Shown here one piece after another: positions 61,395 through 64,000 of a stretch of 64,000 nt of DNA. The DNA is taken from the NCBI GenBank assembly GCA_902515565.1, contig CABXVR010000001.1:62001-126000 (forward strand), written 5' to 3'. Source of the DNA: an uncultured Bacteroidota bacterium (GTDB lineage: Bacteria; Bacteroidota; Bacteroidia; Flavobacteriales; Flavobacteriaceae). The notes beneath the pieces are model-generated. The model had not been told where the DNA came from, did not search any database, and saw only the letters and a program-made list of their open reading frames with translations. The position numbers were made by a program, and so were the translations under genes. Every line of letters begins with the position of its first letter. Position 1 is the first letter of the stretch.

Positions 61395-61595
61395 TTATTT
61401 TTTAGAATTAAAATGGTAGGTAAGGTTGAGATTTACATGAAGGTTATTAACGTCTGTACCAGGATGGTAATAAGGCTCAGCAAAATCATCTAATTCCCAT
61501 TGATAGTTTAAACTTCTTATATAAACGACATTAACGCGTCCCCAAATATTTTTTAACTTTTTTTGGAAGCTGAAATGTACATTATAATCTTTCCA
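61395..61595 (-). pseudogene. Out-of-frame C-terminal remnant of an outer-membrane beta-barrel protein
   Basis: 66-codon open stretch in a different frame from the overlapping SASA/YadA ORF: WKDYNVHFSFQKKLKNIWGRVNVVYIRSLNYQWELDDFAEPYYHPGTDVNNLHVNLNLTYHFNSKK*; amphipathic beta strands and aromatic C-terminal strand. Confidence 0.55.
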
Positions 61596-64000
61596 ATAAC
61601 AAATGCAACCCCTGGATTTGAACCAGTATAAGTGCCATCTGCATAATAATATCCACCATAATCATTTGGATCAATTGAAGTGTCGCCGATACCAGCCTCA
61701 TTATTCACTCCAATTGCAAGCATGCCAAAGTTATCTGAAACGGTAGATAATCCTAGAGCAGTTGACGCTTGATTAATAGCTGAAGTATTTTTATTTGCAC
61801 TAAACGAACTTCTTCCTGATGCTATAGTTTGAAGACCTATTGCTGTAGCACTTCCTGCTGTTCCAACATTCGCATTTATGTCCCCTGCAATATTTTGATA
61901 ACCAGCCGTAAAATTTGTTGTTCCCCACGCAATATTTTCTTGACCTAAAGAAACAGACCCACCTCCAGCAGCATGATTTTTATATCCAATAGCTACCGTA
62001 CTTGCTCCTTCAGCCCAATTCTCTTTTCCAAGTGCTATTGTAGCGTCACCAGTTGCATAATTATAGTTTCCTAAAGCTACAGACGCTTGCCCACTAGCTG
62101 TGTTTCTAAATCCAGTTGCAGTAGAAATATTACCAATTGCTCTAGATCCCCATCCAGCAGACAATTGACCTACGTTACCACCATCAATACCACCAGCAGC
62201 TCCTACTTGAGGGCCAGAAAGTGTATTAAAACCTAAGGCAACGGATCCAAGACCAGCGGCTCTATTATAAGCATTAGCGGCAAATGAGCCCCAACCAGCA
62301 GCTCCCATTCCTTCACTTATAGTTGACCAGTTACCATCTCCACCAGTATATAAAGGATGTCCTGACTCTGTAAATCCTCCAAAATCTTGAGAAGCTTGCT
62401 CAGGACTTTTTTCTGATACAACTAAATCTACACTCCAATCTCCCTGGTTAGCAAATGCGCCGTTGGAATTTCCGTTTCCATCCCTAGATGCACCTCTTGC
62501 AGATGAAGCATAAACTTTTCCGTTGAAAACATTTTGATCTCCGTCTTCAACAAATATGACTGCAGGTTTTTTATCTTGATCTTCAACTATCCCTGTTGAG
62601 GATTGATCACAATCTCCAGAAATGCAGTAATTACCAAAACAAACTAATTCTATCCCTGCTGAGTTAGTGATATTGTCTTCTAAATCATCATGACGACCAT
62701 ATAAAGATATTATTGCATCAGCTCCAGGATCCCCATCCAGCATTAGCATTATACTACTGCCTTGAACTTCAAACCCAATTATAGAGACACTATTCGCATT
62801 TGTTAAAACAAAATCTTCAGAAATTTTTTCTAAAAGGGTTGCAGTATCCTGAGTGTTAATCATTAGCGATTCAGCATTGGTTGTTATAATTAAATTTAAA
62901 CCATTAGTACTGGAAATCTGTATATCAGTCACCATTGGAGCATTTATTTCTTCGCTATAGTCTAAAGAGTAAATATTTTCTAAAACAGGTTTGAATATTC
63001 TAGTTCCAAATTTCTCATATCCATTTGTAAATGGATAGTGACAATTATCTGAATGTGTTGTCATTGCTGTCGTAGGCATAATAGAGATATTTGTGTTGTT
63101 TACAGCTAATTGTCTCTGTGCTTCTTTAATCTTAACCCGCCCAGACTGTGACGTACCACAATCGCAGTCTCTAGTTTGAAATATGTAATATTGTTCAATG
63201 CTTGGATAGTCTTCCTGCCAAAAGCCAACTAAATTTTCAAACTCATTTTTATATTGCTCTGTAGTTAAGCCGCCAGAGAAAGAATCTGCTTCGCCTTGGG
63301 ACCACAAAACTCCCCTTACATAAGACTTCAAGCCTGATTTATTTAATCTGTAATATAGCCTTCCGTAATTTGAATTTGTAGAAGACTGGTAATTTGATGG
63401 TCTTTGAAAAAATGATATTGGCTGTCCGCCGTGAGCCCCATTAAAAATGGCAATAGGGATGTTTAATTCGTCCACTAATTTTTTTGCTAAGACAAGTCCC
63501 CATTGCCCTGTATTTCCATTTGTACCTGAATTTCCATCTCCTTGGCCGTAATACCACTGATTGTTAGTTATCACACTACTGGAGCTAGAATTACCATTTG
63601 CATAAACTCTAATAAAGTCACTTTCATATCCACTTGAACTACCATTATATGAAGGAGCTTCTGCATTGGATTGACCTTGAACAATAAAAACATCTCCACA
63701 AACAATATCTTCTGCTTCCTTAATCATTGCTGCTTCTGCATTATTTATGGCGTATGTTTTAACAGAATATTTTGAGAGTTCTGAGTTAATCTCTATGTTT
63801 ATTTCAAAAGAAGCTTGGTCGCTTGAGAAGCTCAATTCCTGATTGTAAGTTTCAAGCAGTGAATTATTTTTATATAATTCTACATAAACCTCACTATAAT
63901 TTGAATCTAAATTTGTTGGTGAAACCCATTTCCATCCACCAGTAGGTTCTTCATAACTAGGGGAATTTAAATCTTGGTATAAACCAATCCATCCTATGAA
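61553..64000 (-). CDS. Large secreted chimera: CTLD-like segment + SASA-type esterase domain + YadA-like head repeats; 5'-truncated by window edge
   Basis: Supplied ORF begins at an internal TTG; frame stays open to base 64000 (FIGWIGLYQDLNSPSYEEPTGGWKWVSPTNLDSNYSEVYVELYKNNSLLETYNQEL...). SASA motifs DVFIVQGQSNAE, GVLWSQGEADS; C-terminal AxGxxSxAxG head repeats. Confidence 0.8.
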   Translation of the reverse strand, partial: FIGWIGLYQDLNSPSYEEPTGGWKWVSPTNLDSNYSEVYVELYKNNSLLETYNQELSFSSDQASFEINIEINSELSKYSVKTYAINNAEAAMIKEAEDIVCGDVFIVQGQSNAEAPSYNGSSSGYESDFIRVYANGNSSSSSVITNNQWYYGQGDGNSGTNGNTGQWGLVLAKKLVDELNIPIAIFNGAHGGQPISFFQRPSNYQSSTNSNYGRLYYRLNKSGLKSYVRGVLWSQGEADSFSGGLTTEQYKNEFENLVGFWQEDYPSIEQYYIFQTRDCDCGTSQSGRVKIKEAQRQLAVNNTNISIMPTTAMTTHSDNCHYPFTNGYEKFGTRIFKPVLENIYSLDYSEEINAPMVTDIQISSTNGLNLIITTNAESLMINTQDTATLLEKISEDFVLTNANSVSIIGFEVQGSSIMLMLDGDPGADAIISLYGRHDDLEDNITNSAGIELVCFGNYCISGDCDQSSTGIVEDQDKKPAVIFVEDGDQNVFNGKVYASSARGASRDGNGNSNGAFANQGDWSVDLVVSEKSPEQASQDFGGFTESGHPLYTGGDGNWSTISEGMGAAGWGSFAANAYNRAAGLGSVALGFNTLSGPQVGAAGGIDGGNVGQLSAGWGSRAIGNISTATGFRNTASGQASVALGNYNYATGDATIALGKENWAEGASTVAIGYKNHAAGGGSVSLGQENIAWGTTNFTAGYQNIAGDINANVGTAGSATAIGLQTIASGRSSFSANKNTSAINQASTALGLSTVSDNFGMLAIGVNNEAGIGDTSIDPNDYGGYYYADGTYTGSNPGVAFVIGKIIMYISASKKS
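61690..62320 (-). repeat. Tandem degenerate YadA-like head repeats (protein level)
   Basis: GLGSVALGFNT / GWGSRAIGNIS / TATGFRNTASGQASVALGNYNYATGDATIALGKENWAEGASTVAIGYKNHAAGGGSVSLGQENIAWGTTNFTAGYQN. Confidence 0.85.

Follow-up and report, generated by a model that had tools for sequence, protein, structure and literature searches.

A 3'-truncated copy of a putative flavobacterial fibre enzyme with an esterase, an apparently permuted C-type lectin, and a YadA-like head

The gene at the end of the window, i.e., of the whole 64,000-nucleotide stretch analysed here (C1:62001-126000 of G000, the genome of a marine flavobacterium, 1.27 Mb and 65% complete), probably encodes a conserved flavobacterial fibre enzyme in a copy that is cut short at its 3' end, and the intact protein would be a trimeric esterase-lectin fibre that is matured by an S74 chaperone and serves a locus for mannose-rich glycans. 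This reading draws on the domain content of the protein, on gene order and conservation among relatives, on the truncation itself, and on lectin halves that match known lectins in swapped order. Three points are new: the apparently permuted lectin with its swapped halves, a head-S74 module in place of a T9SS tail, and a T9SS-tail protein encoded before fibre-like genes. The features in the window are given in Table 1.

Table 1. Features of the esterase-lectin-head gene and of the adjoining junction (window coordinates).
Feature	Position	Strand	Basis
Esterase-lectin-head gene, part in the window (residues 168-982)	61553..64000	-	Frame open at window edge
C-type-lectin-like insert, end of its N-half (...FIGWIGLY...GGWKWVSP); rest past 64000	63887..64000	-	Pfam, alignment, PDB matches
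Second part of N-terminal beta-sandwich, interrupted by lectin insert	63692..63886	-	Alignment with insert-less L020; high-pLDDT model strands 204-275
SGNH carbohydrate esterase domain (SASA; GQSNA, WSQGE, DNCH)	62987..63694	-	Pfam, alignment, fold match
C-terminal beta-sandwich	62606..62929	-	L013 model strands 525-626 and CE20 architecture (PMC12313940)
YadA-like head region; first ~600 bp identical to head of upstream paralogue	61589..62584	-	Pfam, alignment, fold match
Probable chimeric junction GTTATTGGAAA	61590..61600	-	Found in G141 barrel gene, inferred in esterase gene
Foreign out-of-frame codons closing the frame (IIMYISASKKS, then stop)	61553..61588	-	Sequence comparison
C-terminal 65 codons of outer-membrane-barrel-like gene	61395..61592	-	Intact (579 aa) in G141

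Results

The first-pass annotation described a minus-strand frame still open at the window edge, and the genome sequence bears this out: past position 64000 the frame runs on for 501 bp, uninterrupted by stops, to an ATG (64501 equivalent, C1:126501), which gives a full gene (G000:C1:123553-126501) of 982 aa. The protein consists of 1) an N-terminal signal peptide; 2) a C-type-lectin-like segment; 3) a CE20/SIAE-like SGNH esterase (Pfam SASA); and 4) a YadA-type head. Domain searches of the window gene and its relatives found no T9SS C-terminal sorting domain in head-type proteins, and Pfam found no YadA-type membrane anchor in the window gene or in the intact relatives. Anchoring as a lipoprotein, through the IVSC of the window copy's signal peptide, was rejected, since relatives do not keep this Cys. 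A prophage origin of the esterase part has no support and no phage match; only the S74 end resembles phage fibres.

The sialate-O-acetylesterase-like domain proposed from the sequence is recovered by Pfam (PF03629, 56 bits, cut-off 24.8) and by the model of the L013 orthologue, whose best fold matches are XAC1771, mammalian SIAE, FI8, and PpCE20_II. The Ser of GQSN and the Asp and His of Block V (S278, D486, and H489 in L013 numbering) are invariant in the alignment. In CE20 enzymes, beta-sandwiches flank the SGNH domain, which itself often holds an ancillary domain (PMC12313940). The sandwiches are present in the L013 model (strands 20-51 and 204-275 on the N-terminal side, 525-626 on the C-terminal side), the SGNH domain is uninterrupted, and the insertion is instead in the N-terminal beta-sandwich; a homologue from Olleya (L020) lacks exactly this insert in the alignment. 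Motifs and fold thus predict a CE20-like esterase, with a putative deacetylase activity. In the fold search, the tailspike of cyanopodophage Pan3 (9vyh) also matches the N-terminal esterase model of L013, hinting that CE20-like esterases may also occur on phage spikes.

The head had been recognised as YadA-type, and the profile and fold searches concur: the YadA_head score of the window copy, 24.4 bits, falls just short of the cut-off of 25, several homologues reach 29.7-35.8, and the modelled head of L013 has a regular strand period and matches the heads of BpaC, AtaA, CbpF, BoaA, and UspA1 (solved YadA-like structures among the matches: 7o23, 3wp8, 3s6l, and 3pr7), in a monomer model that is weak outside its core (mean pLDDT 57). 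These repeats and models predict a beta-roll that is likely trimeric. Intact lectin-SASA-head-S74 proteins of ~1093-1101 aa are found in L013, L015, L017, and L018, where the SDxRLK motif of the S74 domain is kept; the S74 end of L013 matches a phage long tail fibre subunit (6f45). Peptidase_S74 is also present in the paralogue upstream of the window gene and on another contig of the genome (C8), and many head-S74 proteins carry no enzyme. A further Peptidase_S74 gene (G000:C36:3312-4172, 1157-aa open frame) is weakly similar to the head region.

The ~600 bp of the window head that are 100% identical to the paralogue are followed by a part only ~52-77% alike, and past the identical tract the window head matches the G002 orthologue at 93-96%. 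This suggests gene conversion between neighbouring heads. That the near-identity is instead a collapse of repeats in assembly has somewhat less than an even chance: short-read assemblers collapse near-identical repeats, and contigs break inside heads in G002-G004, but similar shared tracts with other lengths and boundaries occur in L017, L018, and G004, and L013 has none. Concerted evolution of heads as a general rule was rejected, the L013 heads being only ~64-82% alike. In L018 (8001-14773), tandem esterase and alpha/beta-hydrolase genes share a nearly identical head-S74 tail (97-100%); further along the contig the start of the hydrolase gene occurs again, which may be an assembly repeat.

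The lectin call, initially tentative, gains from the whole gene. Lectin_C reaches 21.4 bits in the full protein of the window, just below the cut-off of 22.6, and 27-29 bits in two relatives (L015, L017), and the family profile matches 44 PDB sequences, nearly all of them C-type lectins. Profile segment 42-91 matches the C-half and segment 119-168 the N-half of the same C-type lectin chain, i.e., the two halves occur in reversed order on the same chains (chain positions 72-120 before 19-69). Once rearranged into lectin order they align as one stretch over positions 2-101 of the 107 of Lectin_C, versus 2-60 in native order. The insert therefore appears circularly permuted and placed in the N-terminal beta-sandwich of the esterase. 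The EPN, E, and WND motifs are invariant in all five sequences, and the E-to-E spacing is 8, as in MBP-A; a mannose-type calcium site and sugar binding are predicted. The permutation is likely but not proven, because it relies on sequence matches and the insert has a pLDDT below 50 in the predicted model. This low confidence, together with the modest gain on reordering in the window copy (from 25.6 to 29.1 bits), would also suit a pair of half-domains that remained from tandem C-type lectins, or a beta insert that is not a lectin. We regard this as rather unlikely, given that the halves fall on complementary, non-overlapping parts of the same solved chains (19-69 and 72-120), that the calcium-site residues are kept, and that insert-less homologues lack exactly this block.

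The 3' end of the gene is not natural, and a chimeric contig is its likeliest explanation. Homology to relatives ends after GTTATTGGAAA, where the sequence passes out of frame into the C-terminal codons of an unrelated barrel-like gene of the capsule locus, leaving 11 foreign codons at the end of the frame; a complete gene was accordingly rejected. The upstream paralogue (478 aa) and four relatives continue past '...GVAFV[VI]GNGD' into a neck and Peptidase_S74, which, with its SDxxxK motif, a Pfam search did not find in the window copy. As written, this copy should not mature by self-cleavage. The barrel-like gene of G141 is convergent with the same glycosyltransferase and carries the same 11-nt word. 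It is unlikely that the truncation is real, i.e., that the esterase and barrel genes were fused in a living cell by microhomology-mediated recombination, leaving a broken fibre gene beside the capsule locus. In favour of a real fusion, no break interrupts the contig at the junction, and a search of the rest of G000 did not turn up the 5' part of the barrel gene, but with a genome only 65% complete this second point says little. Against a real fusion, both genes are cut at the one common word, and C8 opens with an S74 end that lacks its upstream part, ~45 nt past the point of departure by alignment to G002; the gene directly after it is a GH3 gene, an order also seen in G002, G003, and G004. 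The missing chaperone end is thus probably located at the edge of C8. The window gene and the capsule locus are joined only through a junction that truncates two genes, and their adjacency, on which the first-pass annotation had relied, is therefore probably a chimeric join; the last glycosyltransferase of the capsule locus has no counterpart in four genus relatives.

The true neighbourhood of the esterase gene is a SusC/SusD locus. Upstream lie the head-S74 paralogue and a gene for a 229-aa T9SS-tail protein that overlaps it by 4 nt; further upstream are divergent SusC and SusD genes, two F5/8 surface proteins, three GH92 alpha-mannosidases, and, a little beyond these, a GH2 mannosidase-like enzyme, and C8 carries two GH3 genes. 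The order T9SS-tail protein, head-S74, lectin-esterase-head beside divergent SusC/SusD is found in G000, L013 (record AG-313-F11), L016, and L018, and the broken contigs of G004 are consistent with it. L018 and L019 have another enzyme gene with a head-S74, which encodes an alpha/beta-hydrolase domain. A small protein of VDYKSQA repeats (L013:12416-12751) adjoins the lectin-esterase locus.

The evidence favours a role in polysaccharide utilisation over adhesion and over remodelling of the cell's own capsule. The substrate may be a mannose-rich glycan, although the GH92 genes do not fix it. The earlier suggestion of an enzyme-bearing adhesin stands in part: glycan-binding, deacetylating, and head modules do occur in one secreted protein conserved in relatives, but the adhesin and the capsule setting are not supported: the intact relatives have an S74 end and no YadA anchor, and the conserved neighbours are a SusC/SusD system, GH92 mannosidases, and GH3 enzymes. 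The lectin and the YadA-like head would suit a surface adhesin, with esterase and lectin working on the cell's capsule or on the surfaces of hosts or algae, and S74-ended trimeric fibres of Bdellovibrio bind surface glycans (PMC10769870). This is unlikely, however, since there is no membrane anchor and the conserved linkage is to SusC/SusD, GH92, and GH3 and not to genes of the capsule.

Discussion

We infer trimerisation, self-cleavage, sugar binding, the substrate, and the export route of the fibre. The intact protein would be exported by its signal peptide, its head and S74 chaperone would trimerise, and the chaperone would cut itself off at the Ser of the SDxRLK motif, much as Bd3182 of Bdellovibrio loses its S74 domain by self-cleavage (PMC10769870). 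What remains would be three CE20-like O-acetyl-esterases held together on a YadA-type beta-roll; a permuted C-type lectin, predicted to have a mannose-type calcium site, would be set in the N-terminal beta-sandwich of each. Such a fibre may bind and deacetylate a mannose-rich glycan, letting the co-encoded GH92 and GH3 enzymes and SusC/SusD use it. The T9SS-tail protein, whose gene lies two genes upstream, would probably help the fibre to cross the outer membrane or to be anchored there.

The T9SS sorting domain is present in this upstream protein and in sister esterases, which lack the lectin. In the tree of the esterase domain, a branch with support 99/97 sets the eight head-type proteins apart from the rest, and G028 is their neighbour (92/91). 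The G028 locus encodes a T9SS-tail protein and a head-S74 protein next to its esterase, whose own C-terminus is a fused homologue of the T9SS-tail protein. The head-S74 module thus seems to have replaced the T9SS tail once, after capture from a neighbouring gene. Among the sequences compared, the lectin insert is confined to the head clade.

Several observations suggest that the T9SS-tail protein may be an export or anchoring partner of fibres. First, the next same-strand gene after standalone homologues is fibre-like in 10 of 14 loci, as a raw count. Second, this gene usually overlaps or abuts, and encodes head-S74, S74, or collagen-like proteins, or proteins similar to phage tail fibres. Third, the T9SS translocon protein SprA is present in G000. 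In our genome the gene (L003:6020-6709, minus strand, equal to C1:128019-128708) lies 2 kb past the window, and proteins of ~230 aa with T9SS tails directly precede fibre-like genes across Flavobacteriaceae (L075-L080, L095, L098, L100). A more general scheme is possible but doubtful: in a flavobacterial two-gene display, a small T9SS-exported partner would carry trimeric proteins that resemble phage fibres through the outer membrane or onto it, and the S74-matured head would have been taken over by utilisation loci as a scaffold for enzymes, in this case an esterase with a permuted mannose-type C-type lectin.

If the proposed fibre exists, marine glycan-utilisation enzymes can be presented as self-maturing trimeric fibres and not only as T9SS cargo or lipoproteins, and there is a testable candidate partner for a standing question, namely by what route trimeric fibres without an anchor get to the cell surface in Bacteroidota. 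A naturally permuted C-type lectin would extend knowledge of that fold. We found no paper in the open literature on circularly permuted C-type lectins, on S74 proteins in utilisation loci, or on T9SS partners of collagen-like or tail-fibre proteins, which does not prove that there is none.

Comparison with known systems

Each module has known counterparts. CE20 esterases (XAC1771/XacXaeA, Fl8CE20_II, PpCE20_II, and the sialate O-acetylesterases) share the SGNH domain, the N- and C-terminal beta-sandwiches, and the GQSN nucleophile motif, and also sit in a utilisation locus, but here the ancillary domain inside SGNH is missing, the lectin occupies the N-terminal sandwich, D-x-x-H replaces D-x-H, and a head-S74 is added. 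The T9SS-exported SASA esterases of Flavobacteriaceae (L020 from Olleya, and G028) have the same core, 44-52% identical, but no lectin insert, and a T9SS type A tail where head-S74 sits here. Mannose-type C-type lectins (mannose-binding protein, collectins) have the same EPN...E...WND calcium-site motifs; unlike in these, the halves are swapped and inserted in another domain, with no conserved cysteines. Trimeric autotransporter adhesins (YadA, BpaC, AtaA, UspA1) have the same YadA-like head repeats and predicted beta-roll, whereas here an S74 chaperone takes the place of the C-terminal translocating anchor and the enzyme is N-terminal. Finally, S74 tailspikes and fibres (K1F endosialidase, T5) and the MAT fibres of Bdellovibrio, which also use lectin folds (PMC10769870), share the C-terminal S74, the SDxxxK motif, and the trimeric fibre that we predict, but in our system the enzyme and lectin are N-terminal, a YadA head serves as the shaft, and the gene is part of a SusC/SusD locus.
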